A DNA stretch of 64,000 nucleotides from Halomarina ordinaria. Its GTDB lineage: Archaea > Halobacteriota > Halobacteria > Halobacteriales > Haloarculaceae. Shown here piece by piece: positions 1-17,511 of this stretch; positions within the stretch are counted from its first letter, which is position 1; each line of letters starts with the position of its first letter. A model generated the notes under the pieces. It had not been told where the DNA came from. It worked only from the letters and a program-made list of their open reading frames with translations, and ran no database searches. The position numbers and the translations under genes were made by a program. The stretch is taken from NCBI RefSeq assembly GCF_030553305.1, contig NZ_JARRAH010000004.1:1-64000 (forward strand). Direction: 5' to 3'.

Positions 1-709
1 ACACGTCGTCTCGATCTTCACGCTCATCCCCTGCTCTGGCATCCGCCCCGAACTGAACAATAGTGTAGCCACGTTCGGCCCGTTGGTCGGTCGCCGTCCG
101 CTCAGTCGAGCCGGGATAGGTCGCGAACGTTCCCCCGATATCCTCGTAGGCAGGCGTGTGATCGTCGCCGAGAAGCGCCACGTCGAATCCAATAGAGGAC
201 GAGGACAGAACGCTGGGAAGCGACCACTCCGCATGCGGGACTAGCGGCTCAAACGCGCCGTGCGCGACCAACACCGCGTGTTCGGCATCGTGCTGTTCGA
301 AATCGTATTCCAGCTGATCTCGTCGCGATGGGGACACGTAATCCTGCCCGTAGACGGCCACGTCGTCCAGGACTGTCGGCTCATAATTGAGATGAATCGC
401 ATCAGCGACCTCCGAGAACACGGAAACCCATTGCTCGTCGCGAGTCGAATCGTGGTTCCCTGCGACGGTGAGAAAGGGAATATCGGCTGCCTGGAGCCGA
501 CGGAGTTGTCGGATTGCGTGAAGAAGCGGCCCGATGCGCGGATTCGAATCGTGAAACATGTCTCCGCTGTGAACAACACCGTCGACGTCGAGATCAATCG
601 CGTCGTCGATTACCTGCTCGAACGCTGCGGCGAAGTCATCGGCCCGCTCCTGGCGATGGTATTGATGATACCCAAGATGAGTGTCCGACGTGTGGAGGAG
701 GACGGTCAT
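1..709 (-). CDS. Mre11/SbcD-like metallophosphoesterase, 3' end outside window
   Basis: The gene starts at 709 and is still open at the left edge after 236 codons. The product is a calcineurin-type phosphoesterase of the Mre11/SbcD group, a Mn-dependent DNA nuclease that processes double-strand ends. Visible metal-binding motifs are D9-x-H11 in HTSDTHLG, D50 in SGDMFHD, N85-H86-D87 in AGNHD, H150 in VLVAHG and H184 in GDDHTPAY. The usual GxH motif is partly changed to GDDH, so one metal ligand may differ. It is the third gene of the Argonaute-headed strand, 138 bp after the nuclease-helicase. A Rad50-type ATPase would be expected downstream, outside the window. The family is clear. Whether it is the housekeeping Mre11 or a defence-specific paralogue cannot be told here. 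Confidence 0.85.
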   Translation of the reverse strand, partial: MTVLLHTSDTHLGYHQYHRQERADDFAAAFEQVIDDAIDLDVDGVVHSGDMFHDSNPRIGPLLHAIRQLRRLQAADIPFLTVAGNHDSTRDEQWVSVFSEVADAIHLNYEPTVLDDVAVYGQDYVSPSRRDQLEYDFEQHDAEHAVLVAHGAFEPLVPHAEWSLPSVLSSSSIGFDVALLGDDHTPAYEDIGGTFATYPGSTERTATDQRAERGYTIVQFGADARAGDEREDRDDV

Positions 710-847
710 CGGTACACCCCAATACAACGGCTAGTACTACTCGAAACGGTATCGAGGCAGCTCTCAAGGACCCATTCGGCGGTTTCCTGATATTGGGCGA
801 ACGGTGCGGCGGTCGATGTGGATTGGATGCTACTCATGGATTCGTAG

Positions 848-3800
848 TCAGTGAAGGGTGTGGACTTCGAGCTGCGTATCGAGCGGTGGGTCGAGAGCGC
901 CCAGATCGGTATCGCCGACGAGCGCATCGAGTGTGCCCTCCCATACCGGTGGGTGGTCAAGCACGTCAAGGTCGTCGAACAAGCCTTTCCAGAGACCCGC
1001 GCGCTCGTACTCCTCAACCTCTGGTGGGATGACATCGAACACCTGCTCGGACGCGACGACGATCAGTCCCCGCTGCATTCTGGACATAGCAACGTTGAGG
1101 CGGTTCGGATTCAGCAGGAATTCCGACTCGATCTGAACGAAATCGGGATCCGAAGCAGTCGCCGACACCAGAATAACCGGCCGCTGCCCGCCCTGGTATC
1201 GTTCGACGGTGTCGCACTCGACATCGTTCAGATAGGTGTCCAGGAGACCGCGCTGAGCGTTGTGTGGCGTGACGATCCCAACAGCGTCGTCGGGGTGGCT
1301 GGATTCGGCGATCGCCGCCCCAATGGCCGCCTCCACTGGATTCGACTGGCGTGAGGCGTCCTCGTCGTGGACGATGAGTGTCAGCGCGTGCGGGACAGCA
1401 TCTTCGGCGTCGAGAATGTCCGGATCACAGAGCACCCGTCCCACTCCTCGGCTAACCGGTGTTGGCCGGCGTACCGTCTCCCTCTCTTCGGAGTAGTACG
1501 GGATTCCGTCCTGTTCGTAAATATGCTCACGGAGGAACTCGGCAACTCGCTCGTGACACCGATAACTTTGCTCTAGCTGATACAAGGGGATCGTAGCTGT
1601 GCCAGCAACGACACAGCGCTCAGCAGGATGATCGCCTCGAGTGCAGTCATCGACACCGATATCGTCCCCCCGGAGTAGCCGACAGTAGTCGAGAGCTGAA
1701 AGCGATGGCCGACGCTCTTGAGTCGTTCGGCGGAATTCACGCTCCCACTCGTGCTGGCGAACGGGGGGCATCTGTCGCTGGTCGCCGGCGACCAACATCT
1801 GCGCGTCGTCATGGAGGAAGGCCCCAACGGAAAGGAACGACGGGAGCCGCATCATCGAGGCCTCGTCAACAGCGAGTATATCGAAGAACGACGCGTTTCC
1901 GGCCAGCCAGTCCTCGGGGGTCCGGTCGCCCCCCTGCATGACGTCGAAGTTATCGACGAGTTTGTACAGCCGGGCGGGCGTGCCAAAGACGAGCGTCTGC
2001 TGGCCTGTTTGGCGACGAAGTCGACCGACGATCCGCCGAAGCTCCGCATCGTCTTCGTGGTAATCAAGATAGGTGACGTGCTCTAAGGAGTCGTCAGGTT
2101 CGTCGGACGTCAGCCGAACGAGTTCGAGGTGATCGAGCAGGTCATCGCAGCCGGTATCCTCAGCGCGTTCCCCCTCATTTCGATACGCGACTAGAGCCGC
2201 GTGGACATCCTCAAGAACCTCGTCCACGGCCTTGTTCGACTCTCCAGCCACTATCCCGGCACAATCACGGTCGTCGACCGCATAGGCTCGTACCCGGGCG
2301 AGGGTCGCATGTGCGAGTGCCCCCGATGTCTTCCCAGTGCCTGGTGGACCCTGCAGGAGAACTAACTGAGCGGTTGTCTCCGCAATGAATCCCTGTTGCT
2401 CTGTGTTCGGTGGAGGGTCCACGGTCAGTTCAGCTGTATCTCCTTCGCCTAAGTCGGGTCCGTCTTCCTCGGGACCCTCCTCTGGGACGTCACCGACATC
2501 GACCGTCTCTCGATCTGGTGGTGTGGCCCAATTGAGGTAGCCCTGGACACCAGCATCCGAAATCGCGTCCGTTGTTAGGGTCTCGAGTCGCCCGGTCGCA
2601 AGATCGTCGATCAGGCGGCAGAGCGTGTTGTTCTGTGCTTCCCCAAGGAGATCGTAGGCACGCTGAGCGACGATATCGTCGGTCTGCTTGTCGAGAATGA
2701 AGATCTCGTCCTCGACGAACAGGTATGTGCTGTCGTCCTCGTCGTCTGGATCGATAGTCCATCCTCGATGCCACGTTCGATACTCGCGATTCCCTTGCCC
2801 CCGAGACGGGAAGGCGGTGAGATGGATCGTTCGTTCTTCAATATCGAGGTCCTCAACGGTGAGCGCGGGCCCGTGTTCGATGTATTGCGGTTGCGGGGAA
2901 TCCTGTGGGTCGGCGTGCCGATCCAATCGGTTCGCGACCACCCACGAGCCCATCGTCGAACCGTCGGTCTCTTTCAGTCGACAGGCCCGGGCAACCCGTT
3001 CCCCGTCGTCGAAGAGTGGATCGTAGGGAAGATGGCCGTCGACGTGGAGAATGTTTGTATCACCATCTACCCAGGCGTCGGTGACGACAACCGGGACAGC
3101 CTCGCCATTTCTGATGCGCTGGGTGACTGGCAGGCCGTACGATTTGAGCTGGTCCCGTCGACCCGACTCGTGTTCGAGTGCGAGAAACTCCGTCGCGGCC
3201 CGGGCAGTATGACTCTCTCCGAGAGTGAACGTGGAGAGCTCGTCGAGAATGATCGGTCGCTTGGTGAGGTCCGCGTTGCGGTACTCGAGAGAGCGTTCTA
3301 GATGAGCACAGCCGTGAGCGAATCGCATCACGAGCTGTTCGAGATCCTCAATCGTGATCCGAGTGGTCTGAGCGTCCTCGTCGATCCATCTGAACGGCTC
3401 GACAGACTGATAGCCATCTGACTCCTCTTTGATTTCTGCCGCCCACTCGGGTGTGAGCACCTCGTGAGCGGCCCATATGTACTCCAGTGGAATCTCCGCT
3501 CTCCCCCGTGGTCGGGAGGGATAGTAGCCATCGCGATCGTCTTCGGCATAGAGGGCAAGGCCAGGGCGCTCCCGCCGATAGCCAACGGTGTAGTCAAACA
3601 GCTTGTAGTCGAACGCCTCCTTGAGATCAACCTCCACTCCGTCCGACCGGGTATACCCCCAGTCACGCCGATAGAGGGTATCCTCATCGGCTTCACAGAC
3701 ATCAAGTGCTGGTAGGAGCCCGACTGTGGGAATACCGAGAGCACGCCGCTCACGGAGCTCCCGCTGGACAATGGAGACCATTGCCTGCTCGTCATGATCG

Positions 3801-5401
3801 AACGCTTCGTCGCCCCGACCACTAAGAGCCGCCCGGAGCCCAAGCAGGTCACGAACTGCGGACGCTCCGGGGACTTCCTGCCGAGTCGCGGCCTCGACGA
3901 GGGTCTCGTACTCACTGTTCGTGAAGAAATAGAAGTGGACAGCGGCCTGATCGGTATCCATCGCTGCGCCGAGGGTCTGGACGGCACGGAACAGATCTTC
4001 CAGTCCGTCCGTGAGTAACTCTTCTTCAAGCGCGGTGGCCTCGGCCACCGAGTCGGGAACAGCCGACGCGACATGGCCGAACCGGACGGAATCATCGGCG
4101 TTCGACGCGGACACATACCCTCCGATCGCGTTGATTCGGTCGTAGCGGTGGTCTCGCTGGATATTGAGGTAGATCCGGATCATCCCACCCCGCTCGATGG
4201 GCTGATTGAGATCGAATCCAGGATCATCAGCGGGGAGTGCGCCATCGCCGCTCCCGACGAGCCAAACGGGCGTACGCCCGCCAGCGGCAAACGTCGTTCC
4301 AGGGGCGACCCGCCCCCAGAACGATTGGGCACGCTGGATGTGATTTTGAAGCCGCTCCGAGACCCCCGGTTCGTCAAGGAGCGCCTGGTACGTCTCACGG
4401 TCGCGAGGACGGAGGTCGTTATAGTCGTAGGGGCGCGGCTCACCAGGGGGGTACGCCAGTCCGGCGAGGTCCTCGATAGTGTCGACACCATAATCAGCGA
4501 GGACTGCCTGGTCGTTCCGCGATAACCCCAGCAGTGCAGTAGATCCCGATTCGAGTGCCTCAGTGTAACACGCTTCCTTGTACGCACAGCCGTGGCATTT
4601 CGGCTCAAGTTGGTAGGTGACCCGGTCTGACTCAGCGTTGTAGAGGTCATCGAGTGGACCGTCTTCCCGGATGAGGCGACGTACGTCTACCTCGCGGTTT
4701 CGGAGGTCAAACGAAGGGAAGGCCTCCGGTGCCGCGTCGTCGAACTCGTCAGTACGGATGATGATTCCTCCCTCGATTACATAGGGGAAGTCGACGTCGA
4801 CGTGTTCGAGAAACTGACGCAGGAGAAGGGTGTAGCAGGCAACCTGAATTTGCTGATAGGTCTTCTCCTCGTGGGCGGCTTTGATATCGAGGATGCGAAA
4901 TCGTAGCCCCACCCGATCGGTGTCGTTCTCCTCGGCGTCCAGCGGGAGGGGCCAGCACACCAAGAGGTCGGCATCTCCGGCGACCGGCCACGCGTCTAGA
5001 TGGTTGCCGAGTCGCGCCTGTTCGAGGATGAGTGGCACCGTAGGATCAGGAAGATCGAGTGCCGCATCGAACGTATCGAGCAACGCTGGCCGAGAGCGTT
5101 CCCACGTCTCAATATGATCGTGATCGCGGACGTGGGCATGATCTCGGAGCTCGTCGACGACCTGCTCTTCGTAGTCGTTCCCGTCTTTTGCCAGCAGTAG
5201 GTTCAGCGGGTGAAAGGCCTCTTTGTAATCGTGCTCACGCCGTCGTTCGGCGGCGTACTCGTCGTCATACTCGAACTGGAACCACTGCGGACAGCCATCA
5301 AGGTTGACGAAGCGCCCAAGCTTCGATGGAAGGACTGGCGGTTTCTCAAGCACTTCGGCGGGGACCTCAATGGGCGGAGGAGGTGTCGATGACGTGGCCA
5401 T
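848..5401 (-). CDS. Cas4/Dna2-like nuclease fused to superfamily 1 helicase
   Basis: 1517-residue fusion. The N-terminal RecB/Cas4-type nuclease has G142-D143-A-D145, D172-I-K174 and a QxxxxxxY segment at 183-190. Cysteines C37, C269, C272 and C278 fit an AddB/Dna2-type [4Fe-4S] clamp. The middle resembles the RNase H-like part of TM0106-type proteins but lacks an obvious acidic first motif (IYLNIQRD), so it may be inactive. The C-terminal helicase has Walker A GPPGTGKT near residue 1015, Walker B AVDEASMM, GDQRQMPPV, QSYRCH and ERYQGGQ. Expected role: unwinding and cutting of DNA ends or flaps. It starts 109 bp after the Argonaute gene on the same strand and is followed by the Mre11-like gene, suggesting joint action. 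The domain calls are strong; cooperation with Argonaute is inference. Confidence 0.88.
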   Translation of the reverse strand: MATSSTPPPPIEVPAEVLEKPPVLPSKLGRFVNLDGCPQWFQFEYDDEYAAERRREHDYKEAFHPLNLLLAKDGNDYEEQVVDELRDHAHVRDHDHIETWERSRPALLDTFDAALDLPDPTVPLILEQARLGNHLDAWPVAGDADLLVCWPLPLDAEENDTDRVGLRFRILDIKAAHEEKTYQQIQVACYTLLLRQFLEHVDVDFPYVIEGGIIIRTDEFDDAAPEAFPSFDLRNREVDVRRLIREDGPLDDLYNAESDRVTYQLEPKCHGCAYKEACYTEALESGSTALLGLSRNDQAVLADYGVDTIEDLAGLAYPPGEPRPYDYNDLRPRDRETYQALLDEPGVSERLQNHIQRAQSFWGRVAPGTTFAAGGRTPVWLVGSGDGALPADDPGFDLNQPIERGGMIRIYLNIQRDHRYDRINAIGGYVSASNADDSVRFGHVASAVPDSVAEATALEEELLTDGLEDLFRAVQTLGAAMDTDQAAVHFYFFTNSEYETLVEAATRQEVPGASAVRDLLGLRAALSGRGDEAFDHDEQAMVSIVQRELRERRALGIPTVGLLPALDVCEADEDTLYRRDWGYTRSDGVEVDLKEAFDYKLFDYTVGYRRERPGLALYAEDDRDGYYPSRPRGRAEIPLEYIWAAHEVLTPEWAAEIKEESDGYQSVEPFRWIDEDAQTTRITIEDLEQLVMRFAHGCAHLERSLEYRNADLTKRPIILDELSTFTLGESHTARAATEFLALEHESGRRDQLKSYGLPVTQRIRNGEAVPVVVTDAWVDGDTNILHVDGHLPYDPLFDDGERVARACRLKETDGSTMGSWVVANRLDRHADPQDSPQPQYIEHGPALTVEDLDIEERTIHLTAFPSRGQGNREYRTWHRGWTIDPDDEDDSTYLFVEDEIFILDKQTDDIVAQRAYDLLGEAQNNTLCRLIDDLATGRLETLTTDAISDAGVQGYLNWATPPDRETVDVGDVPEEGPEEDGPDLGEGDTAELTVDPPPNTEQQGFIAETTAQLVLLQGPPGTGKTSGALAHATLARVRAYAVDDRDCAGIVAGESNKAVDEVLEDVHAALVAYRNEGERAEDTGCDDLLDHLELVRLTSDEPDDSLEHVTYLDYHEDDAELRRIVGRLRRQTGQQTLVFGTPARLYKLVDNFDVMQGGDRTPEDWLAGNASFFDILAVDEASMMRLPSFLSVGAFLHDDAQMLVAGDQRQMPPVRQHEWEREFRRTTQERRPSLSALDYCRLLRGDDIGVDDCTRGDHPAERCVVAGTATIPLYQLEQSYRCHERVAEFLREHIYEQDGIPYYSEERETVRRPTPVSRGVGRVLCDPDILDAEDAVPHALTLIVHDEDASRQSNPVEAAIGAAIAESSHPDDAVGIVTPHNAQRGLLDTYLNDVECDTVERYQGGQRPVILVSATASDPDFVQIESEFLLNPNRLNVAMSRMQRGLIVVASEQVFDVIPPEVEEYERAGLWKGLFDDLDVLDHPPVWEGTLDALVGDTDLGALDPPLDTQLEVHTLH

Positions 5402-5510
5402 ATTTAGTATCCCCTAGTTGTTGTGACAGCCGTCATAATCGTTCGGCTCAGGACAGCTATCTGACCGAGAGACCGAGGAGAATGCCCCGTGAAATGCTGC
5501 ATCCCTCTGA

Positions 5511-8159
5511 TCACACGTACGGAACCCCCCGGATAAGTTCCCCACTCAGGAGATACCCCTTCCGCGCATGCTCGGCACAGCGGTCCGCATAGTAGGTGGT
5601 GATAGGGAGCCGAGTCGACCGGCTGATCGATCCCACGTGGGCCTCCGAGAGCCAGTAGGCCTGCTTCGCAAGGGTCTCCAAGTCGGTCGAGCCGTGACGC
5701 TTGACCAGTCGAATCGGCCGAGGCGTTCCTGGGACGCGTTCCGGATCCCCGGTCGTCGCGAGGTACGCGTGATCAGCGTGCTGCGCGACGAACCCGGTCC
5801 CCTTGTTCGCGACCTCGAAAGTGTCCCCGGTGTAGTTAGCGATCCGAGGGTTCCCGCTCTTCCGGATTTCCACCAGATCGAACTTCGGGATTAGTTCGGC
5901 GGCTTGGTCGAGCCGTTCCGCCAGCTCGTCGACATCGAGATAGTACTGCCCGTCGCGGTGGATAATTACGTGTCGGGGGGTATCGTCTTCCTCACGGAGA
6001 TATACCGACAGGAGATTCTTGATGATATCCACGATGTCGTCGATCTCGAACGTCTCACCGCTCTGCAACGACACGGACTGTGACGCGAGAATCGTCCCGT
6101 CGGCGAGGACGACGTTCGCGCTGGCACCAAGATGCTGGCCGGTGGCGGGATCGTACGTGACATCTAACCCGATGAACACGTCCGTCTGTCCCGGAACTTC
6201 ATGGATGCGCCATGGGATTCCCCCGCACTTCGCGACTAAACCTGAGGCGATGTTTCCCAGATAGGATTCCTCGTCTAGGTTGGAGACCTGGATCATCTGG
6301 GAAGGGAGTTTTTCCTGCCCCCACTGGCGCTTGAATTCGGGGTACGGATCGTCGATGTCGGGTTGTGTCTTGAGCCAGTCCTGATCGGGAACGACCGCGA
6401 CGACACCGTCGTACTCGGTCGCCTGTTCGGCCACCTGCGTATACGCGAACTCGGATCCGAGACTGTAGGTTTCCTGATTGAGGCGAGTCGCGTTCGCGTC
6501 GTAGTCATTCAGTTTCGAGAGGAGCCGTCGAACGAACTCCCGACTTCCTTCTTTGTACTGCTCGGGGTAGACGGTGAGTAGGTCAAATGATTCCGGTGAC
6601 TGGTGGACGCCGTGGTTTTCCAGCCCCCGAGCGCCGTAGGAGGCAGTCTGACCGCTACCGAACCGGAGATTGTTGCTCCGCGTGTTGACTGTGAGCTCGT
6701 CGTAACAGGTGTTGGATGGCTGCGTTGCAGGCTCGAGCCCGAGCGCTGGTGTCATCCCCAGCGACTTCACGAAAGACGTCGCGATCGAATAGCGCTCATC
6801 CGGCGTCAGTCGGGCGGACCGTTGGAACCGCTCGTGGAAGTCTGGGTCGACGATCTTGAGCTGATCGAGCGTCGGGACGATCCGGCAATAGTCGAGCGCC
6901 TGCAGCCCACTGAATGAACCGTAGTCGATGTGGGCCATCACCGGCTCGCCGGCTGCGACGCTCTTAATGAGGTCTTCCTCAACGTAGCCGCTTTGGTCGT
7001 GATACTCAGCGATTGACGAACCCATCTCGGGTACACGCTCGGTGTACCCCGTGTCGGCGAGTTCGGTGACGGTTCCCGTACCAGAATTGTCGTAGACGTC
7101 CGTGTCGTGCTCGACACTGACCCCTTCGATTTCGTATCCACGGTGAACGTACTCGGCCGCCGAAAATGTCGATGCGAGACGGAAGCCGACGTTCACGCCA
7201 CAGATAACCGTTCCATCGGAGTCCACCCATATCCGACACTTGTACTCACGAGCAGCAGTGAAGTCGCCGCTGGTCGCTTTGAGTTGCGGGGCGAACTCAA
7301 CGATCGAGTTGATCGCGTTGATGACATATTTCCCCCGGAGAGACGCCTTTACGTCCTGTTTGACGAGTTCACGCAGTGGCTCTTGATCGTCGAACGACTG
7401 GGGTTCGAGCGTCGCGATCCCTTGGTGAACAGGACGAACGGTGTATCCGTTGATTGAGAGGTTCTCGTGGAGTTTGTCGACCGCGTATACCCGCAGCGGG
7501 CCGTTCGTGGTAACAGGTGCCTCACTCTGGTAGCGGAAGCGCGCTGCGGCCCGGGCTGTGAAACCTAGCACGCCGTTGTCGAGATCGTCGTCCGACGGGT
7601 CAAGGCCCCCAGGAACATCGAGTTCGTACTTATGGACATCCAACTGTGAGAGATTGCCCAGCGGGAAGTGGAGAAGATAGTTGCCGGGAGCAAGCGACTG
7701 CTGCGCCAACGCGGCGCCGCCGTCGGCGGTCGTCTGCCCAGTCTGTCGAACATCCGAGGCGGGTTGGAAGTCGGACTCGTCAGCCTCCGTGGATTCCGTA
7801 CTGTTCGGCGCCGTATCCGACGTTTCGGCCGTGCTGGTAAGGTTCGTCGGATCGCTCGCAGCAGCCGGCGGTCCATCAAGCGGAACGATTTCGAAGTCCC
7901 ACGAGGGGACGAGCTGGAGTTCATCCCAGTTCTCGTAGTAGTTGCCCTCGGCTCCTTCGAGCCTGTACCAGCGACCCTCGTCCCAGTCGAACGTTGCACA
8001 GTCGTTGCTCTCGAAGATGACCAGCGGGACTTCAGCGCCGTCGGCATCCTCGAAGAGCACCTTCCGCGCGAGACTGCCCTTGTGGATTCCGATGATCTCC
8101 GTCGCGCGGAGTTCGATAGTCAGCTGTTCGCCGTCAGTGATCTCCTCGCGCGTGTTCAT
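5511..8159 (-). CDS. Long prokaryotic Argonaute, NgAgo-like, catalytically intact
   Basis: 882 residues, close to Natronobacterium gregoryi Argonaute (887). Residues 1-95 look like the OB-fold (repA-type) domain of halophilic Argonautes; an A/S/T/D-rich linker follows (about 97-145), then N, linker, MID and PIWI regions. The PIWI domain carries a complete DEDD tetrad: D666 in FIGLDVTYD, glutamate-finger E702 in QSGETF, D736 in IIHRDG and D859 in YYADR. The last residues PYV are hydrophobic, as is common at Argonaute C termini. Known role of the family: guide-directed nicking of DNA, defence against plasmids and viruses, and stimulation of recombination. It is the first gene of a same-strand set with nuclease-helicase and Mre11-like genes. 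The start at 8159 follows a 329 bp gap. Guide and target type cannot be read from sequence. Confidence 0.93.
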   Translation of the reverse strand: MNTREEITDGEQLTIELRATEIIGIHKGSLARKVLFEDADGAEVPLVIFESNDCATFDWDEGRWYRLEGAEGNYYENWDELQLVPSWDFEIVPLDGPPAAASDPTNLTSTAETSDTAPNSTESTEADESDFQPASDVRQTGQTTADGGAALAQQSLAPGNYLLHFPLGNLSQLDVHKYELDVPGGLDPSDDDLDNGVLGFTARAAARFRYQSEAPVTTNGPLRVYAVDKLHENLSINGYTVRPVHQGIATLEPQSFDDQEPLRELVKQDVKASLRGKYVINAINSIVEFAPQLKATSGDFTAAREYKCRIWVDSDGTVICGVNVGFRLASTFSAAEYVHRGYEIEGVSVEHDTDVYDNSGTGTVTELADTGYTERVPEMGSSIAEYHDQSGYVEEDLIKSVAAGEPVMAHIDYGSFSGLQALDYCRIVPTLDQLKIVDPDFHERFQRSARLTPDERYSIATSFVKSLGMTPALGLEPATQPSNTCYDELTVNTRSNNLRFGSGQTASYGARGLENHGVHQSPESFDLLTVYPEQYKEGSREFVRRLLSKLNDYDANATRLNQETYSLGSEFAYTQVAEQATEYDGVVAVVPDQDWLKTQPDIDDPYPEFKRQWGQEKLPSQMIQVSNLDEESYLGNIASGLVAKCGGIPWRIHEVPGQTDVFIGLDVTYDPATGQHLGASANVVLADGTILASQSVSLQSGETFEIDDIVDIIKNLLSVYLREEDDTPRHVIIHRDGQYYLDVDELAERLDQAAELIPKFDLVEIRKSGNPRIANYTGDTFEVANKGTGFVAQHADHAYLATTGDPERVPGTPRPIRLVKRHGSTDLETLAKQAYWLSEAHVGSISRSTRLPITTYYADRCAEHARKGYLLSGELIRGVPYV

Positions 8160-8488
8160 ACATACACCCCAGATGAACGATATCTGCTCCGGTGGCGATA
8201 ATCGGGGCCCAGGACGGCGGATAGTCGGTATTTGACGGTTTGTAGGCTCGGTTTCGGCCCCCTTGAAATTCGTGGTCGTCGTGATCGGGTAGAGGGTCGC
8301 ACGCCGGTATGATGCAGCATACCACCCTCAACGACGGCCTAGCGCTTAAAGATATCGGATATCCACATTACAACGTAGAAATTGGATCACTCCGATGTTA
8401 TAGTGAGTGTTCGGGCTTCATTAAACATAGTTTATAAGAGTATTAGTAGTAGCGCAAAGCACTTGTCCCTCTAGTTCATACTAGGATT
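8160..8488. promoter_or_regulatory. Divergent promoter region between Argonaute and ATPase genes
   Basis: Non-coding stretch of 329 bp between divergent starts. The right third is AT-rich with a good TATA-like box, TTTATAAG, at 8431-8438 for the plus-strand ATPase. No equally clear TATA box is seen close before the Argonaute start; AAATAC (minus strand, about 8228) is a weak candidate. No repeats were seen. Confidence 0.6.
8431..8438 (+). promoter_or_regulatory. TATA box of the AAA_14-type ATPase gene
   Basis: TTTATAAG in an AT-rich stretch. A start of transcription about 27 bp downstream (near 8462) would leave a short leader before the GTG at 8489. Confidence 0.55.
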
Positions 8489-9928
8489 GTGCTTACAAGT
8501 CGACTCCAGCGGGATCTCCCACTCTACAATGAGTGGTGGCAGAGTGGAGATCCACCTAGCTCAGACGACTCGCCGTATCGAGAGTCGCGACGCAGTGATT
8601 ACAGGAATCATCTCGACAGCGTTCGCGAGCAATCATTTTACGCACTCGTAGGAGCAGACGGGAGCGGAAAGACGGCGACGCTCTATCAGATTGTCCATGA
8701 TTTCATCGTTGATTACGACGTTGAGCCCGACCACGTCGTATACGTTCCGCTCGAGAATCCAATTTACGCACTCGAAAGCGATCAGTTCATCATCGATATC
8801 TACGAGTGGTACACTTCGTACATCCGCCGACAGACATCGGAGGACGGATCGACCTATTTCCTCTTCGATGACATTCACCAGCTGGATAATTGGGCAGAGC
8901 AGGTCAATGAGCTACTTGCTCGCTCGGAGTCGCTCCACGTGGCTGTGACGTTGCCGACAGAAGTACCTGAAATCGAAGATTTCGATGGTTCACTATCGGA
9001 TAATCGATCCATTCTTCTCCCACCGAAGTTCTATGACTTTGCGAGTATCGAAGCGGGTGTTCCTGAAGCAGACAAAGAGGATTTCATCTACCATATCCGA
9101 GATGGTATCGCTGCGAAGCGTGGGGTAGACCTCACAACGATTGTCGACGAATGTCTCACACTTCACGATTATCTCGCCACGGAATGTGATGATTTGTCGT
9201 CTGTCGTAGACAATTATCTATTCAACAGTGGGCTTCGTGATGAAGAGGGCCGAGGACTTTCAACGATCAAACAACGACTTCAGTTGGCGCTATACAAAGA
9301 TGTTCAGCAGTTCTATTCGATTGAGGATGCAGGGGATCTCTTCACGCTTTGTGTGTTAGTGGCTCAAGAACCTGTTCAGGAGTATCAATTCAGTCGACTT
9401 ACGAACCAGTTAGATACCGACCGGCGGACAATCAGGAAGTATCTCGATATTCTTCAGGACTTTTTCGTCCTCTCCCCCTCGTACAAGTGGGGCTACGAAC
9501 GACACCGGACTCTCCGGATGTACCTCCGGGATCCGCGGTACGTGAGTGCCCTGAATCTCTTATCGGATGCCGATTCAGCCCCACGGACGGATGATCATCG
9601 AGAGAATCTCATCCACTCGGTTGTGTATGATCATCTCCGTCGGCTTAGCTTCTATATGAACGATTACACCGACGTTGATATGCCAGTTCGCTATTGGGAC
9701 GAAGCAAATGAGACGGTTGAATTTGTCCTTGACGTGTACGGATCTCCAGTTCCTGTCGCTCTTAGTACTCGTCGGGGCGAAGATGCTGCGACGCAAGCGG
9801 TCATCGACTGTCTTGACGACACAGAAGCTACGCGAGGAGTTGTTGCGGGAGAAGATATCCGACAACCATACGCTGGTGATGATCAAGTCCTTCGTCTTCC
9901 ACTCTGGATGCTACTCTACATATGTTAG
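8489..9928 (+). CDS. AAA_14-type ATPase with degenerate DUF4143-like C terminus
   Basis: 479 residues with a GTG start. The N-terminal half is an AAA_14-like P-loop ATPase: Walker A GADGSGKT (about 55-62), a following VVYVPLENP segment, and Walker B YFLFDDIHQLDNW. A winged-helix-like middle (TNQLDTDRRTIRKYLDIL) leads to a C-terminal DUF4143-like region. There the usual nuclease-like VDF...IEVK pattern reads VEFVLD...VPVALS, so the E and K are gone and nuclease activity is unlikely. The gene is AT-richer than its neighbours and transcribed away from the Argonaute gene with its own TATA box, 30-60 bp before the start. Members of this family are common in archaea but poorly understood. A regulatory or defence-accessory role is a guess from position. 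Confidence 0.7.
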   Translation: MLTSRLQRDLPLYNEWWQSGDPPSSDDSPYRESRRSDYRNHLDSVREQSFYALVGADGSGKTATLYQIVHDFIVDYDVEPDHVVYVPLENPIYALESDQFIIDIYEWYTSYIRRQTSEDGSTYFLFDDIHQLDNWAEQVNELLARSESLHVAVTLPTEVPEIEDFDGSLSDNRSILLPPKFYDFASIEAGVPEADKEDFIYHIRDGIAAKRGVDLTTIVDECLTLHDYLATECDDLSSVVDNYLFNSGLRDEEGRGLSTIKQRLQLALYKDVQQFYSIEDAGDLFTLCVLVAQEPVQEYQFSRLTNQLDTDRRTIRKYLDILQDFFVLSPSYKWGYERHRTLRMYLRDPRYVSALNLLSDADSAPRTDDHRENLIHSVVYDHLRRLSFYMNDYTDVDMPVRYWDEANETVEFVLDVYGSPVPVALSTRRGEDAATQAVIDCLDDTEATRGVVAGEDIRQPYAGDDQVLRLPLWMLLYIC

Positions 9929-10006: not shown

Positions 10007-13000
10007 TTATGGCGGTTTTGTTGACTTCTCTCGGTTATCGAGGAATTGATCACACCACGTCGGAAGGGAATCCATCGGTCCATTTTCAGTTACTGCCCCA
10101 TCGCCTGCAATCCGGGTAAACACGCCGTCCCGTCCCCACGCACACACTACTGGCTCCTGGTCTTGATCGGGTCGAGTCACGATTCGCTGATGGAGCCGCG
10201 ACGGATCCTCACTCACATCCTGCAGTACTGTGAGGAGCTGTCCTAGAAGTGGATGACCTGGTGCAAGATGCTGAACGGATGGGAACTCGTCAGCACACAC
10301 AGCCGAGAACGTCACCGCCACTTCATCAGCAGCAGTCGCAATAGCCTGTGCAATCGTCTGTTCCCCATCCCCGGCTGGGACCTCAATCGGTGCATCACCT
10401 ACTGAAAGGCGATATGTACTGTCCGCAAAGTCGAAGTCCCCGTCATCGTACTCGAAGTCAATCTCATGAACCGGAGTGAATTCGACACCGGCCTCGGCAA
10501 GAGCGTCGTTATCGACCAACACTGACTGAAGACTCGGTGTCTCGAACGGAGGTTGATACTCGTATTCCTCCTCGCCGACATCGACAAGATCTGGGTGATT
10601 GTAGGACTGCCACGCATCAAGTTTTGCTTCGTCGACAACGTCCTGAGCGACGAGGTCGTCGACGTCCTCGAGTGACTCTCCGACATCGACGCGATCGCCC
10701 TGATCGCGTTCTTCGAGTTCTTCAGAGAACTCGCGGTCAGCTGACTCGACCGCAGTCTGGTCGTCAGCGCTGTCGGCGTTCAAGGTCGCATCCCGAATCT
10801 GTTGGCTGACGCCTGAGAGTATGGGTTGCATCTCACCGACGACATTTTCGAAGAGACCAATCCGGTCGTCAAGGCGATCATAGATGTCCGTCTCAACCGT
10901 ATCCTCGTAGCTGTAGTTGAGAATGCGAATCTCGTCGAATCGTTGGCCGATGCGGTCAATCCGACCGATACGCTGTTCAACCCTCATCGGATTCCACGGC
11001 AGGTCGTAGTTGATGAGCGCCCCACACTCCTGGAGGTTTAGCCCCTCACTCGCGGAGTCGGTACAGACGAGGATATCGACCAGGCCATCATCACGTGAGA
11101 ATTCACGCTTCACGCGCTCTTTCCCGACGTGCTCCCACGTTTCAGAATCGGGGTCGTACAGCTCGCCGCCACGACCGGAGTACGTCGCGATTGTCGCTCC
11201 AAGAAGGTCCGCGAGACTGTCCCGGATGAAGTCCATTGTGTCCGCGTACTGCGTGAAGACAATCACCCGGTTGTGACCAGCCCGGTCCAGCTCGTCGAGG
11301 TCGTTGTACAGCTGCTGAATCTTCGGATCTGTATCAACCAAGTCTAAGTCGTTGACGAACGCTTCCAGGGCCTCGATTTCTTCCTCGATAAGCTGTTTCC
11401 CCTCTTCAGTCACGCTCGGGATGAGTTCAGAGAGGTCCAAGTCGTCGCTACTAGCGTCGAGTTCATCCAGAACATCCCCGTCGTCGAGGTCTGCGTCTTG
11501 TAGCGTTTCGAGGACGACCTGCTCCGCATCACCATAGTCCCGATCACGAGCGCGTTCCCGTCCGGCAAGCACGGTTCGTTGCGCCCGAAGTGTCTCAAGC
11601 CGGTGTTTCAGGCTCTGACTGATCGCATAGACACTCGACGTGAGTCGCTGCCGGTACGTGGTCATCACGAACCCAATGGCGCGTGTTTGGGCTTCGTCAG
11701 TCTGTTGGGCTCGCTTGTAGAATTCACGTGTGTACTCGTCGATCTGGTCGTAGACCGCCCGTGCCTCCTCGGTGAGTTCGATTTTCCGTTGTTCGGGATT
11801 TCGGTTCGGAACGGTTGTTTCGAGGAGACCGACTGCCTCGTACTTCCGGAGTGTATCCCGTGTATTCCGGTGAATGAGCGCGTCGACGGGCGTGGACTCT
11901 GCGAGAACATCGCGGATGACTCGCCAACCGCCCGGGGAAAGTTCGTCAAGTGCGTCCTGTCGGTCGCTGCGGGACGCCATCAACCACTCGTCGGCGTCTT
12001 CAGGATAGAGGAGCCGTTTGAGTTTCGTATCCTCGCTCGCCTCGAAGCGGTCGATGTCATAATCTGCCATCGCGTCGTCGACATGGTCGAGATAGCCGTC
12101 GTAGGCGTCTCCATAGGCTCGTGCGAGCCGGCACGCGGTCAGCACACGCTCTTTGGCAATGGCACGGTCCTGTCTGTCCTCATTGATCTCGAGTTCGTCT
12201 GCAAGGTGCTGGAAGACTTTTGAGGAGAATGGTCGGTCCGTCGGGAGCCGGTCTTGGTGTTCCAGTCCATCGAGCGTGGCTTGCGTGTCCCAGGAAGCCT
12301 CCGCTTTGTCGGACTCTGAACTAGGGTTGTCGAGAACCTCGTTGAGGGCCCGCGACAGCCCGTCTCGGGTTTCGAAGAACTCCATGAAGGTATCCCGGTT
12401 ATCCCAACCACCCGGAAGATCCAGCAACTGCATCAGATCGTAAAGTTCGCCTGAGTGCAATTGCATCGGTGTAGCCGTCAAGAGGTAGTAGGCGTGCGTA
12501 TAATCGCGAAGCTGTTCGAGAAGAGCGTAGAAATTACTGCCACGTCGGGCGTTGTGCGCCTCGTCGACGATGACGGCGTCCCACACGCCCATCCGGTCTT
12601 CCGTATCGTGGTCGCGTCCGCGACAGCTTGCCGGGATGACGTCCCGAGACCGGTCGGATACCCGGTCTAAGGGAGCGACCTGATCCCACCGGTCGTCGAG
12701 ACGAGCCGTGTGCCAGGACATAATGACGACCGTCGGCCCATCCAGCGGCGACGATACATCGGCATCAGTCGACTGCTGTTCGTAGAGGAACCGCCAGATG
12801 GGGCTGTCCGTCCATTCGCGCTCCCCAGTGAGGTCGAGGTCCGTTGCCGATGGTGGATAGTGATCGCGACCGCGGACATCCCGGAATACGTGATCGCCCG
12901 CTGTGTCCCGGTCAAATCGGACGGCGTTGATGTTGAACTTCTCCCAGAGCTCTTCCTGCCACTGCCGCTGCAGACTCGCCGGAACCAGCAACAGCCCGGT

Positions 13001-13954
13001 TTCAAGCTCCCCGGTGAGTCCAAGCCGGGAGAGTGTAAGACCGGCCTCGATCGTCTTCCCGAGCCCCACCTCGTCACACAGCAAGAAGCTCTGTGGATAT
13101 GTATTGACGAGTGTGTCCGAGACAACTCGTTGATGTGGCCACGGCGTGATCGTGCTCGCTTCCTCGGCCAGTGCGAGCCCACCGGGCGAGAGCGGTCCAT
13201 CCTGAATGATGTTCGCTTTGTCGCGCTCCGTCGGCGGAGCTGTACCGTTCGCGATCTGAATCGCTTCCTGGAGATCGCTCTCGGTGTCTGGGGCTTTCCA
13301 GTCGATGATGTCCTCTTCGATCGCCTCGGGGAGGTCATACACTTCGACGAAGGGGTGTTCATCACTCCACAGTCGCTCGAAGGTTTCCTCGTCGCCGGCG
13401 ACGTAGTCCGCCTGTTCAGGAACCCACGACCGATGAACTTTGAACCGCTCATAGTTGCGAGCCCAGCCGCCGACCGTCTCGTTGACGCTGCCCTCGAACG
13501 AAATCGTGTTTCCGCCGCTATCGTGGAAGAGTCCAACTTTCGGATGGAAGATCTCCCAGTCGTGAGAGGGAGAGCGTGGATAGGCGACCTTGATGTGGAT
13601 CCGGCCCTCGCGGAGGAGACGCGCGAGAATACGGAGGTTCGCATCCAGGCGTTCGTCATCGAGGTCCTCGAGGTTTTCCTCGAGGCGGTCGGTGAGCGTC
13701 TCTAGAACCGGACGGTCAGACTCGTAGAGTTCGGTGCCGACGATGAGGCGCATTTCACCATCGTTCTCGACGAGGGCGTGAATGCCGTTGGCAGCAGCCG
13801 CGAGTGCCGTACTCGAGAAGTAGCCCGCGATCCGGTCGTATTGCTGACTGCGTTCCAATGCGGGCTCGTAGAAGTCCTTGACGAGATGGGCTCGCCCCTG
13901 CTCGGGCTTGCTCTCGTAGATCGACTGCCACTCGCGGTCACGTAGATTAGTCAT
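10007..13954 (-). CDS. PLD-like and SNF2-type helicase of the DUF499/DUF1156 defence operon
   Basis: 1315 residues. Residues about 30-190 form a phospholipase D-like domain with FHPKVGLF and SFEGSVNET, an HxK-type half site. The SNF2/superfamily 2 ATPase follows: DEVGLGKT near residue 298, VDEAHNARR near 461, TATPMQLHSGE, and C-terminal motifs VIVFTQYADTM near 895 and QRIGRIDRIGQ near 1000. It is the last gene of the minus-strand operon, 17 bp after the methylase remnant. Similar helicases accompany the methylase in DISARM-related systems (DrmD is SNF2-like) and the DUF499-DUF3780-DUF1156 arrays. Likely role: ATP-driven movement on, and possibly cleavage or blocking of, unmodified invading DNA. 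The fold is certain; the mechanism is not. Confidence 0.88.
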   Translation of the reverse strand: MTNLRDREWQSIYESKPEQGRAHLVKDFYEPALERSQQYDRIAGYFSSTALAAAANGIHALVENDGEMRLIVGTELYESDRPVLETLTDRLEENLEDLDDERLDANLRILARLLREGRIHIKVAYPRSPSHDWEIFHPKVGLFHDSGGNTISFEGSVNETVGGWARNYERFKVHRSWVPEQADYVAGDEETFERLWSDEHPFVEVYDLPEAIEEDIIDWKAPDTESDLQEAIQIANGTAPPTERDKANIIQDGPLSPGGLALAEEASTITPWPHQRVVSDTLVNTYPQSFLLCDEVGLGKTIEAGLTLSRLGLTGELETGLLLVPASLQRQWQEELWEKFNINAVRFDRDTAGDHVFRDVRGRDHYPPSATDLDLTGEREWTDSPIWRFLYEQQSTDADVSSPLDGPTVVIMSWHTARLDDRWDQVAPLDRVSDRSRDVIPASCRGRDHDTEDRMGVWDAVIVDEAHNARRGSNFYALLEQLRDYTHAYYLLTATPMQLHSGELYDLMQLLDLPGGWDNRDTFMEFFETRDGLSRALNEVLDNPSSESDKAEASWDTQATLDGLEHQDRLPTDRPFSSKVFQHLADELEINEDRQDRAIAKERVLTACRLARAYGDAYDGYLDHVDDAMADYDIDRFEASEDTKLKRLLYPEDADEWLMASRSDRQDALDELSPGGWRVIRDVLAESTPVDALIHRNTRDTLRKYEAVGLLETTVPNRNPEQRKIELTEEARAVYDQIDEYTREFYKRAQQTDEAQTRAIGFVMTTYRQRLTSSVYAISQSLKHRLETLRAQRTVLAGRERARDRDYGDAEQVVLETLQDADLDDGDVLDELDASSDDLDLSELIPSVTEEGKQLIEEEIEALEAFVNDLDLVDTDPKIQQLYNDLDELDRAGHNRVIVFTQYADTMDFIRDSLADLLGATIATYSGRGGELYDPDSETWEHVGKERVKREFSRDDGLVDILVCTDSASEGLNLQECGALINYDLPWNPMRVEQRIGRIDRIGQRFDEIRILNYSYEDTVETDIYDRLDDRIGLFENVVGEMQPILSGVSQQIRDATLNADSADDQTAVESADREFSEELEERDQGDRVDVGESLEDVDDLVAQDVVDEAKLDAWQSYNHPDLVDVGEEEYEYQPPFETPSLQSVLVDNDALAEAGVEFTPVHEIDFEYDDGDFDFADSTYRLSVGDAPIEVPAGDGEQTIAQAIATAADEVAVTFSAVCADEFPSVQHLAPGHPLLGQLLTVLQDVSEDPSRLHQRIVTRPDQDQEPVVCAWGRDGVFTRIAGDGAVTENGPMDSLPTWCDQFLDNREKSTKPP

Positions 13955-13971
13955 ACTGGAGGGGTTTCGAG

Positions 13972-14607
13972 TTAGGCGTGGTCACCGAGTTCGGTCTGTT
14001 CGGCCCTGTCTTCTGAGACGTCAGTGAAATCAGTAGGGGTGAATTCGAGACCGAGTGCGTCGTGGGTCCGACCTAAGGCGAGGTCGCGAGCAGCCTCCCA
14101 TTCAGGATGATCCTGGGGGAGTACCTGCAAGAGTGCTTTTAGAGTGGCTTTGAATGGCGCATCCGTATCGAAATTCCGTTCTTTGAGCCAATCAATTGCA
14201 ACGTCTTCACCTTGCTTCGCGTAAACATGCATCGCTGCGTGGACCGCATCCAGTGCAATTGTGAAGGAAATAGCATCTGGATCGACTGGTTTCCGGTTAG
14301 AACGTTCCTCTTTGGGGAGAGTAATATCTTGTACCCTATCGTCATAGCCACGCAATTTGATGTCACCTCGGCGCTTTCGCCAAAGTTTGGTGGAACGCTT
14401 GATTTCGTCGATATCGACCCCAATACCGAGTCCTAATTGGTGTCCCTCGTCGTAATTGAATGTATCTGACTCGTGAACAAGCCACGAGAGGACATACCAT
14501 TCTGTTATGTCGTCCAATTCACCCAGACCTCCCCCCTCCAGATACTCATCGACAAGAATCTGTGTCACAGCTTCGCGGGCTTCCTCTAATGCGCGCCGCG
14601 GCGGCAC
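13972..14607 (-). pseudogene. C-terminal part of DUF1156 methylase, out of frame
   Basis: This 211-codon frame begins at an unconvincing GTG but is protein-like throughout. It reads as the missing C-terminal third of the preceding methylase: in the frame shifted by two bases, the upstream part continues as LSLTKTDVIISAFGPTLKVY and runs without a stop into this frame. Joining 16880-13972 with two bases removed gives exactly 969 codons (968 residues plus stop), a plausible full DUF1156 length. It is either the tail of a phase-variable gene in the OFF state or a decaying remnant. It lies 17 bp before the helicase gene. No independent function is proposed. Confidence 0.8.
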
Positions 14608-14654
14608 TGGTTCATCTTGATCATCGACAACTGGATAGGCATCAGCGTATACTT

Positions 14655-16880
14655 TTAGAGTTGGACCGAATGCGGAAATGATAACATCAGTCTTCGTGAG
14701 AGAGAGAGGCCCGAATCAAGAAGATCCCGTGCAGCGTCTTTCGCGGCAAGCCGTGTGTCGGCACGCACATCACTCCAAAGAGTTGGTACATCACTATCGA
14801 TCGGAGATGAGCCTTCGGTGGTCTTCCGCCCAGTAAGTAAGAGAGTGCTATCAGCAGACCCACTATCCTGAGTGTCGATTCTAGCAGGCATCTCACTAGA
14901 AATCGGGTGTGTTGATGTTATCGTAAAGCCAGAGTTGATCAGGGATTTGGTAAGAGTATCCCAAGCATCTGTTTCTTTGTGCGTGAACATTACAGTCATC
15001 ACTCCACCAGGCTTGAGAACGCGGTATAATTCTGAGAAGATCTCGCTCATTTTCTGCTCATATTCATTATTTGCTAATTCTCGCTTAGAATCAGAGCCGC
15101 CTGCAATACCTTCAAATCGGCTGGGATTTGCAACCGCTTCATCATCCTTGTTCGTGAGATCCGGCTGGAACTGGTCAGGATAGACGTCGTCTAAATATTC
15201 CTTCATCCACACATAGAACATATCAGATAGTTCTGCATACATAATACTGCTATAGTATGGAGGATCGATCACAACGGCCTCAATTTCGTTATCCGAATAT
15301 GGTAGACTCGCAGCATCTCCCGTAGATAGTTCCGCAGGGGAAGCATCGTCGGGAAGATAAGATACCAGTTCTTCATAAGATTCAATTATTTTTCTAATGG
15401 CAGATTGGTAACTACCCATTCCACCGACCGACATATTGATATCGGCAAATGATTTTGCAAGAGACAGGTGTTTACCCCCCATCGCGTTCGAAGGATATCC
15501 TTTCCCTGTATGCCATGGTGAGAATCGCGAATTATAATCAACAAGTTTGCCCGGAACTAAAGAAAGAACTGTCAGAAGTGCTTCTGCCTCACCTTCCGGA
15601 TATTCTTCTTTGATTTCATCCTTCTTATCCTCAAAGGACCTGTAATACTCGTAGTGAGAGACCAGCTGGCGGGGAGTGAACATATCCCTCCATTCATGAA
15701 TTCCATGTTCCCGTGGTTCCCGGGTCTTTTCTCCTTCTGGTAGAGGAGTAGTCAAGAACGATGCAAGATCAAAATCAGACTCAATACGTTGTTCAGCACT
15801 CGTTAATGCCTCATAATCAGCTTCATTAGGAGCCCGGAAACTGTAATTTCCAGAGGAGTTCATATAGCGGACGCAGATGATGTCATAACTGAAATCCCCC
15901 TCCTGATGCATTTCTACGATATCCTCAGATTCAGTCACGATACCACAATTCAAACACTCAGCGTCACCACCGCGAGAGACCGTCCCCTGTTTGTGATCAA
16001 ATTCGTCTAGTTCTTCCTCAGTTGGCTCAATCAGACAATCGTACCCAATCGAGCCATCTTCAGCCACTTCTGGAACAGAGATAACGGTATCTGCACTCCG
16101 TCGTGTACGAATAGACCATTTCGAAACTAACGGTATATCTGTTCCACAGTCGGGACAAGTAACAACATGTGCGCAGACGTAAGAATCGACGGAGTCATGC
16201 TCTCCTTCTGAGGGGAAGTATTGTTCCAGTCGCTCTTCCGCAAGGTCATCAATACGTTGGCTCCATTGCTCCAAGTCGTCCTTGAGTGACCCAACTCTTG
16301 GTGCGTAATTCAATAATACCTGTAGGATTACCGAAGGAACCGGGTTTAGCTCGTTAGCCTTAGTCGGTAAACCATATCTGATAGCCTCGTATGGAATTAT
16401 GCCCCCACCCGCACACGGGTCTAATACGGTTGGAAGTTCACCATCCCATGTCTCTTCCAGTATTTCATGGATATCACGTCTCTCTTTTTTATTCGGTGAT
16501 TGTGTAAATGGACGAGGATAGCCATAATGTTCACCCAGAGAACCACTTCTATCCCCCTCACTAGCTTTCTTTTTCTCAACGTATTCTGAGATGTCTCCTT
16601 CAATCCCCTCTTTGGGGCCGATTTGTATCCAACTGAGTATTTGGTCAGAATCTACACCCTCAGGGAGGATAGAGGCCAAAGTCGCTAACCGAGCTGCAGG
16701 AGTAGGACGGCGAGCGAACCAAGGGTGAAGGTACCGATGAGGAGGCATATGTTTGGGGTTTGCCTCCTTCAAATTCTCTATCCCTACGGCTTTTAGTGGT
16801 AGTTTTCCTTCTATTGCAAGATTCTGTCCCTCAATACCGTCTGAATTAGAATTATCCTCAGTCATTTTTCTATTTGACAT
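14655..16880 (-). CDS. DUF1156 adenine-type DNA methylase, truncated by frameshift
   Basis: 741 residues as encoded, ending in a short non-native tail after residue ~728. AdoMet-binding motif VLDPCAGGG lies near residue 155 and catalytic motif VIDPPYYSS near 538. The first DUF1156 segment (PHRYLHPWFARRPTPAARLA) is near 50-70. CPDCG and CLNCG pairs suggest a zinc site between the motifs. Expected role: amino-methylation of DNA that marks self in the DUF499 defence module. The start overlaps the DUF3780 stop by 11 bp. Base composition is AT-richer than the flanks, suggesting separate transfer. A GA-repeat at 14698-14709 throws the frame out by two bases; both motifs remain, so the short form might keep some activity, but the lost C terminus probably includes target recognition. 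Confidence 0.87.
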   Translation of the reverse strand: MSNRKMTEDNSNSDGIEGQNLAIEGKLPLKAVGIENLKEANPKHMPPHRYLHPWFARRPTPAARLATLASILPEGVDSDQILSWIQIGPKEGIEGDISEYVEKKKASEGDRSGSLGEHYGYPRPFTQSPNKKERRDIHEILEETWDGELPTVLDPCAGGGIIPYEAIRYGLPTKANELNPVPSVILQVLLNYAPRVGSLKDDLEQWSQRIDDLAEERLEQYFPSEGEHDSVDSYVCAHVVTCPDCGTDIPLVSKWSIRTRRSADTVISVPEVAEDGSIGYDCLIEPTEEELDEFDHKQGTVSRGGDAECLNCGIVTESEDIVEMHQEGDFSYDIICVRYMNSSGNYSFRAPNEADYEALTSAEQRIESDFDLASFLTTPLPEGEKTREPREHGIHEWRDMFTPRQLVSHYEYYRSFEDKKDEIKEEYPEGEAEALLTVLSLVPGKLVDYNSRFSPWHTGKGYPSNAMGGKHLSLAKSFADINMSVGGMGSYQSAIRKIIESYEELVSYLPDDASPAELSTGDAASLPYSDNEIEAVVIDPPYYSSIMYAELSDMFYVWMKEYLDDVYPDQFQPDLTNKDDEAVANPSRFEGIAGGSDSKRELANNEYEQKMSEIFSELYRVLKPGGVMTVMFTHKETDAWDTLTKSLINSGFTITSTHPISSEMPARIDTQDSGSADSTLLLTGRKTTEGSSPIDSDVPTLWSDVRADTRLAAKDAARDLLDSGLSLSRRLMLSFPHSVQL
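14698..14709. repeat. GA dinucleotide tract at the methylase frameshift
   Basis: Plus-strand (GA)5GG; on the coding strand CCTCTCTCTCTC. Losing one dinucleotide unit restores a single 968-residue methylase frame. Short dinucleotide tracts can slip during replication, so this may be a phase-variation switch. A sequencing error is possible but a two-base error in a clean short tract is less usual than a single-base one. Confidence 0.7.
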
Positions 16881-17511
16881 GGTCCGTCAGCAACACTCGA
16901 AGGGCCTTTTCGCCGTTCGGACTCGACGGAGACCGACACTTTGCGTACCAGTAGTAACACTCCTCATCGCTCATCCGTGCAACGCCTCGAGCCAGCGACC
17001 GCATCCGGTCGATACGCTGAATCGGTTTCACGCCACGGAAGGCAACAGCAAGCCGGACGCCTGCCGTCTCGGGTAGGAATACGAATCCAGCCCCCCCAGT
17101 GAGAACTTCTGATGAATCTCCTGGCGTGCCCTCGACCGCTTCCCGGACGACATCCTGGAGCGCACGGACGCGGGTCGGGTCAAGCCGTGCGACCTTTGCG
17201 CCGGCCCACTCATCCCACGTCCAGCCATCGAGCTTGGAAAGGAGGTCGTCCCCGGCGACGTCCGAGACGAGATCCTCGACTGGTGTGATACTCAACGAAC
17301 GACCATCCCGCTCCAGGCGATCACGGCGGGCTTCAGCCTGTTCACGAGGGAGTAGTTCGTGGAGCGTCCACTCGCCGCCACCGTCTGTCTCTCGTCGGAC
17401 GAGCGTGAACGTCGGGCGGCCACCGAACATACTCGTCCCGTAGCGAACCAGCCGATCCTCCTCTGTTCCCTCAGCGGGTGAGGTCTCAAATTCCGAACCG
17501 CGACTCGCCAT
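16870..17511 (-). CDS. DUF3780 protein of the defence operon
   Basis: 213 residues. The conserved core is recognisable: a MFGGRPTFTLVRRE segment near 28-42, WTLHELLPREQAEARR near 48-65, a W-rich stretch (LDGWTWDEWAGAKVARLDP) near 95-112, and VRLAVAFRGVKPIQRIDRM near 155-175. No catalytic motif is evident. DUF3780 is known mainly from its fixed position beside DUF499 ATPases and DUF1156 methylases in defence islands. The start overlaps the DUF499 stop by one base (TGATG-type junction) and the end overlaps the methylase start by 11 bp, so translation is probably coupled. Likely an adaptor between ATPase and methylase; this is inference from gene order. Confidence 0.8.
   Translation of the reverse strand: MASRGSEFETSPAEGTEEDRLVRYGTSMFGGRPTFTLVRRETDGGGEWTLHELLPREQAEARRDRLERDGRSLSITPVEDLVSDVAGDDLLSKLDGWTWDEWAGAKVARLDPTRVRALQDVVREAVEGTPGDSSEVLTGGAGFVFLPETAGVRLAVAFRGVKPIQRIDRMRSLARGVARMSDEECYYWYAKCRSPSSPNGEKALRVLLTDHVK

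Follow-up and report, generated by a model that had tools for sequence, protein, structure and literature searches.

The stretch of DNA considered here, called the window throughout, comprises positions 1 to 64,000 of a contig from the haloarchaeon Halomarina ordinaria (G000:C4:1-64000; contig C4, 137,954 bp; G, C, and L handles denote genomes, contigs, and loci). At its left end, genes for a long prokaryotic Argonaute (pAgo, or simply Ago), a nuclease-helicase (NucHel), and an Mre11-like phosphoesterase lie on the minus strand, at the positions and spacings given by an earlier reading of the DNA (the original prediction). The first 123 bp of C4 are identical to its final 123 bp; given this exact terminal overlap, C4 is circular, a plasmid of ~137,831 bp on which ParA- and TFB-like genes are also found. 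Once the contig ends are joined, an intact Rad50 gene lies directly downstream of Mre11, where the original prediction had placed one. The gaps within the block are 109 bp (Ago-NucHel), 138 bp (NucHel-Mre11), and 142 bp (Mre11-Rad50), and the sequence between Ago and a divergently oriented ATPase gene is the likely place for the promoter or promoters of the block. The features are as follows.

5511..8159, minus strand: Argonaute (long pAgo), 882 aa; Piwi PF02171, E=4.5e-22
848..5401, minus strand: NucHel (nuclease-helicase), 1517 aa; Pfam AAA_11/AAA_12, motifs, and fold matches
2..709, minus strand: Mre11, first 236 codons of 481 aa; Metallophos PF00149, E=3.5e-10
across the contig ends to C4:137096 (L019:19096), minus strand: remainder of Mre11; closed-circle translation
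C4:134286-136952 (L019:16287-18953), minus strand: Rad50, 888 aa, outside the window; closed-circle translation
8160..8488, no strand: divergent intergenic region between Ago and the DUF4143 ATPase, 329 bp; gene coordinates and sequence
8489..9928, plus strand: DUF4143-type AAA ATPase, 479 aa, divergent from Ago; AAA_14 and DUF4143 matches

Among 391 genomes of the class, the order Ago-NucHel-Mre11-Rad50 is found in one other, at 46-57 kb of plasmid NZ_CP026313.1 (G322:C5) of Salinigranum rubrum GX10, which belongs to another genus and family (Haloferacaceae). The S. rubrum proteins, annotated as a Piwi protein, an AAA protein, a metallophosphoesterase, and an AAA ATPase, are 71% (Ago), 72% (NucHel), 69% (Mre11), and 58% (Rad50) identical to those of the window, and the divergent DUF4143 ATPase is common to both blocks (56% identity). 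Over the 20 kb compared, the only match beyond the block was to a gene located elsewhere on the window’s plasmid. Since a different genus and family shows this order too, the gene set is not a product of chance; the linkage that the original prediction expected to see conserved is therefore present, and it extends to Rad50. A search of the genome contigs with the single Ago sequence returned nothing, whereas a search with the Ago alignment returned 24 loci, and no relative was found in the viral contigs searched. Plasmid-borne NucHels of Halalkalicoccus and Haladaptatus (42-45% identity) adjoin a restriction endonuclease, not Mre11-Rad50 or Ago.

The Argonaute was predicted to be catalytically complete, and alignment bears this out: D666, E702, D736, and D859, the DEDX tetrad of the PIWI domain, are invariant across 15 aligned haloarchaeal Agos. 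Among solved structures, CpAgo and CbAgo are the closest (E about 1e-40). The length of 882 aa and the alignment to CpAgo from residue 288 would suit a PAZ domain between the N and MID domains, and no PAZ Pfam model was matched. In many haloarchaea the N-terminal ~120 residues have matches in stand-alone proteins (open frames of ~325-400 aa), for example at G142:C4:169271, G129:C1:2202266, and G151:C3:765924, and a gene of this type lies close to NucHel in L122 and L129.

NucHel has the layout of DNA2 and of the bacterial DNA2-like protein Bad (PMC7430649), i.e., an N-terminal iron-sulfur (Fe-S) Cas4-like nuclease fused to a C-terminal superfamily 1 (SF1) helicase. No Pfam model matched the nuclease, which carries a Cas4/RecB-type motif set (D145, D172-I-K174, and Q186xxxY190, with four cysteines) characteristic of Fe-S PD-(D/E)XK enzymes; D145, K174, Q186, and Y190 are invariant, and C37, C269, C272, and C278 are conserved in at least 90% of sequences. 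The helicase part (Walker A at 1018-1025, DEAS at 1179-1182) is of the SF1 AAA_11/AAA_12 type in Pfam and matches UPF1 and DNA2 profiles. In a predicted model of residues 1-1000 (mean predicted local distance difference test score 78.5), residues 15-335 match Cas4 and exonuclease 5 (EXO5) and residues ~400-715 match RNase H-like exonucleases, both at Z 9-11 with VIA-align; Foldseek alone gave only weak matches for residues 1-1000. As the expected acidic motif I of the RNase H-like fold reads IYLNIQ, a degenerate form, this central domain is probably inactive. The description of the protein as a Cas4/Dna2-type nuclease joined to an SF1 helicase thus holds for both ends and was incomplete as to the middle. 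The resemblance to DNA2 and Bad is one of domain layout, and NucHel is called DNA2-like, rather than DNA2, because of the additional fold between nuclease and helicase. Elsewhere, NucHel relatives at L130, L133, L135, L138, L139, and L140 lie near the recurring gene clusters c11, c12, c13, and c42; one recurring neighbor reads like a QueC-type protein, and a link to 7-deazaguanine DNA modification is possible.

The chromosomal contig C1 (2.78 Mb) keeps its own Mre11-Rad50 pair (C1:1245709-1249697), to which the plasmid proteins are 43% (Mre11) and 40% (Rad50) identical. The plasmid pair is therefore a second, divergent copy, and the concern that this Mre11 might be the single chromosomal one falls away. 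The plasmid Rad50 scores 791 bits against Rad50_Halo, below the equivalog cut-off of 1000, and so is a divergent member of that family. In a Rad50 tree it forms one clade with the S. rubrum plasmid Rad50 (support 100/100), separate from the chromosomal Rad50s of four genomes (100/99). Rad50 has intact Walker A, CPEC hook, LSGG, and Walker B motifs, and Mre11 retains its metal-ligand motifs, including the GDxH form seen in chromosomal copies. Assignment to Lamassu was considered and rejected, as LmuB gave 132 bits compared with 791 for Rad50_Halo and the neighboring gene is Mre11; LmuA was not searched by name.

Association of Ago with end-processing genes is recurrent across the class. The 20-kb surroundings of Ago loci were clustered and Pfam was run on cluster representatives, with the names AddAB-like and MrfAB-like denoting domain content only. 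Within 10 kb of the 50 Ago loci of the 391-genome set, Mre11-Rad50 was present at 15, an AddAB-like gene at 18, and NucHel at 6, and at least one of the three at 35. None was present in 40 random 20-kb stretches from Ago- and NucHel-bearing genomes (20 from main and 20 from secondary contigs), which are not matched defence islands. For Mre11-Rad50 the difference (15/50 vs. 0/40) corresponds to a Fisher P of 7.5e-5, an upper guide only, because the Ago loci are related. At 20 NucHel loci, 19 of them without an Ago match, Mre11-Rad50 was found at none and an AddA-like gene at three. The DUF4143 ATPase family occurs within 10 kb at 24 of the 50 Ago loci (cluster c2, in 25 loci).

The partners vary. 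Ago is found with Mre11-Rad50-NurA-HerA in G241, G061, G083, and G278, and also in G003, G065, G268, and Halarchaeum; with Mre11-Rad50-NurA, with or without an MrfA/MrfB-like pair, in G141, G068, G373, G095, and G224; and near NucHel in Salinirubellus salinus, Haloglomus halophilum, G151, and G180. In G241 the genes form a contiguous six-gene operon, Mre11(-4)Rad50(+2)NurA(-1)HerA(+23)AgaP(+31)Ago; G278 and G141 have operons of a similar kind. At L174 (G011:C6) a DUF4143-Mre11-Rad50-NurA-HerA-AgaP-like cluster stands without an Ago match, as if such modules can work Ago-free. Two further patterns were considered and set aside. Mutual exclusion of Mre11-Rad50 and AddAB-like genes was suggested by raw counts (both at 1 of 50 loci, P=0.004) and had no support from independent pairs on the Ago tree. 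Replacement of HerA-NurA by NucHel was suggested by seven genomes that seemed HerA-free, three of which have the NucHels most similar to that of the window; family searches gave G337, G002, and G073 another HerA type and NurA. This leaves G303 and G339, which belong to one genus and are 88-90% complete, as the only genomes with neither, a weak hint.

In a quick Ago tree, whose relevant starred branches have Shimodaira-Hasegawa-like approximate likelihood ratio test support of 96-100, the sister group of the window and S. rubrum Agos consists of the Halosimplex aquaticum and H. carlsbadense Agos. These sister Agos carry AddAB-like genes plus AgaP, as do most close relatives of the window Ago; the genes that follow Ago in most of these encode AgaP, one protein of UvrD_C-like and one of PD-(D/E)XK type, and a fusion of UvrD helicase with PD-(D/E)XK (AddAB-like). 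NucHel-Mre11-Rad50 therefore occupies the place of the relatives’ helicase-nuclease set, and which of the two sets was ancestral is a matter of inference. Over the whole Ago tree the presence of Mre11-Rad50 changes 10 times and that of AddA 8 times, so that Mre11-Rad50 has been gained or lost repeatedly.

The reading that we favor, with modest confidence, is that the block is a plasmid-borne immune module, in which Ago would nick or break invader DNA and a dedicated resection machine would degrade it, make guides from it, or both. Guided by small DNAs, Ago would nick or break matching invader DNA; Mre11-Rad50 would process the ends, and NucHel would unwind and cut. Opening and resection of the ends by NucHel and the dedicated Mre11-Rad50 could then destroy the invader, turn its fragments into new guides, or both, in a manner like that of RecBCD and CbAgo. 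Ago, Mre11-Rad50, and NucHel would on this account be co-expressed and cooperate in defence, with a DNA guide and with the reaction running in the direction just described. The guided nick-and-resect or guide-generation pathway of the original prediction fits the finding that haloarchaeal Agos have AddAB-like, Mre11-Rad50-NurA-HerA, or NucHel partners, and it is argued from linkage. More tentatively, haloarchaeal active Agos may constitute a class of immune systems with exchangeable end-processing machines (Mre11-Rad50-NurA-HerA, NucHel-Mre11-Rad50, or AddAB-like), each acting like RecBCD in guide amplification and invader degradation; this broader proposal we hold as possible, with less than even confidence.

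Parts of such a pathway are known from other systems. In E. coli, invader DNA cut by CbAgo is degraded by RecBCD, which also drives recombination (PMC10164581). CbAgo is among the solved structures closest to the window Ago, and the proposed module would follow the same logic, in which Ago cuts, a helicase-nuclease degrades, and guides come from the invader; however, RecBCD belongs to the host and is unlinked, whereas the window’s machine is dedicated, of another type, and encoded beside Ago. The Synechococcus genes ago, uvrD, and recJ, together with one that is cas4-like, all limit the same plasmid (PMC10653904). That system likewise sets an Ago (SeAgo), a Cas4-like nuclease, and a helicase against the same plasmid, but its genes are unlinked and Mre11-Rad50 is not among them, while in the window nuclease and helicase are one Ago-linked protein. 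In Natrinema pellirubrum, the pair of a long-A pAgo and AgaP (PLD), known as APAP, restricts a plasmid and a virus (Cheng et al. 2024, PMC11442185). APAP shares with the window a haloarchaeal, catalytically complete long pAgo, often with a DUF4143-type ATPase alongside, and sisters of the window Ago carry AgaP; the window Ago itself has no AgaP-cluster gene within 10 kb, the hallmark of APAP, and NucHel-Mre11-Rad50 in AgaP’s place. The archaeal Mre11-Rad50-NurA-HerA operon has the same Mre11 and Rad50 families, and the whole set lies beside some other Agos; the window’s block differs in having no NurA-HerA, in having NucHel beside Mre11-Rad50, and in being extra to the chromosomal copy.

Neighbors already reported for pAgos include nucleases, helicases, Cas4-like proteins, PLD proteins, and UvrD-PD-(D/E)XK (Makarova 2009, Ryazansky 2018, Cheng 2024). 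The text of Makarova 2009 and of Cheng 2024 does not contain Mre11, and that of Ryazansky 2018 does not contain SMC; the APAP paper goes no further than “a helicase-encoding gene” near some operons and uses none of the words Mre11, Rad50, HerA, and NurA (PMC11442185). Searches of titles, abstracts, and full text found no report of an Argonaute linked to Mre11-Rad50, HerA, or NurA, with preprints and most subscription papers outside coverage; given that coverage, a pAgo defence locus equipped for end resection may have been described before.

Several observations weigh against the proposed immune module. No more than two genomes have the exact four-gene order, and one of them, S. rubrum, has an Ago with a frame shift past ~residue 116, between the N-terminal domain and the remainder (L086:5700-6300). 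Fifteen of the 50 Ago loci, some with truncated flanks, lack an end-processing module within 10 kb, and NucHel and Mre11-Rad50-NurA-HerA copies are often away from Ago, with ~35 of 43 HerA paralogues having no Ago within 20 kb. The gaps within the block permit separate promoters, neighborhood alone is weak evidence because defence genes cluster, and co-transcription, interaction, and activity of the module are predicted from linkage and motifs. The RefSeq version of the S. rubrum Ago starts downstream of the frame shift, which may be real or a sequencing error.

The main rival, which we consider unlikely though it deserves the most weight, is that two independent systems adjoin in one island: an Ago defence, and a separate NucHel-Mre11-Rad50 anti-invader complex of an SMC-family ATPase and nucleases. 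The dispersal of HerA paralogues just described is consistent with it, as are Ago-free Mre11-Rad50-NurA-HerA sets (L188 and L174), NucHel-Mre11-Rad50 without an adjacent Ago in G337, the spacing of 109-142 bp between genes, and the fact that NucHel mostly occurs without Ago, often near queuosine-like genes. However, independence sits poorly with an order that includes Ago and is kept in two families, between which only one dispersed gene is otherwise conserved in 20 kb. Nor would it lead one to expect Mre11-Rad50 near Ago at 15 of 50 loci but at 0/20 Ago-poor NucHel loci and 0/40 random stretches, the tight Ago-containing operons of G241, G278, and G141, or the participation of several Rad50 lineages.

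Two other explanations give the block a purpose other than destruction of invaders. Ago nicking followed by resection could drive homologous recombination, with plasmid integration or equalization of copies as the result, an outcome we regard as improbable. Mre11-Rad50 and DNA2-type enzymes are resection enzymes. Stimulation of recombination or editing in E. coli has been reported for NpAgo and CbAgo (PMC11442185; PMC10164581). Yet the conserved block showed no recombinase gene, Agos related to that of the window adjoin AgaP, which is half of a pair that restricts a plasmid and a virus (PMC11442185), and Hma-like and Hachiman genes are present on the same plasmid. Finally, Mre11-Rad50 and NucHel might maintain or repair the plasmid itself, Ago being incidental; we think this very doubtful. 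It would suit the circular form of the replicon, its ParA- and TFB-like genes, and a Rad50 related to Rad50_Halo, and in G303 and G339, where NurA and HerA were not detectable, a close NucHel is present as if in substitution. On the other hand, the H. ordinaria chromosome already has Mre11-Rad50, and NurA and HerA-type genes are present; the two plasmids that carry the block have hardly anything more in common over the compared stretch; and none of the 20 random secondary-replicon stretches has these genes.

Other genes of the plasmid also belong to, or resemble, defence systems, which speaks for the immune reading of the block. Hma-like genes occupy positions 10007-20810 of the window on the minus strand and encode a SNF2/PLD helicase (HmaA-like, also matching DrmD and PLD-helicase), a methyltransferase (HmaB), and an AAA ATPase (HmaC). 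A Hachiman pair lies at 34144-37637 on the plus strand (HamA, 305 aa; HamB, 858 aa, 1003 bits). Just beyond Rad50, and in convergent orientation to it, a trio of ubiquitin-like genes (L019:13616-15910 on C4, plus strand) encodes proteins of 97 aa (weak Multi_ubiq match, E=0.035), 158 aa (no match; E2-like, at a guess), and 519 aa (JAB+ThiF/E1). Salinirubellus salinus has their homologues in unchanged order (L108:6745-9363; 29, 25, and 38% identity), between Ago-AgaP and MrfB-MrfA-NucHel, and the trio is absent from the S. rubrum block. Because Pfam gives only the weak Multi_ubiq match, these genes were left out of the module.

For the guide supply of long pAgos, and for their destruction of double-stranded invaders, the best current model comes not from a native host but from E. 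coli, where the RecBCD of the host is borrowed. In the case of H. ordinaria, resection enzymes of archaeal/eukaryal type are encoded beside Ago on a plasmid, in a group for which haloarchaeal genetics exists, and guide acquisition and invader destruction by these Agos become directly testable. If the proposed module is correct, the Argonaute pathway and Mre11-Rad50 resection, known separately, would be joined in one immune system.

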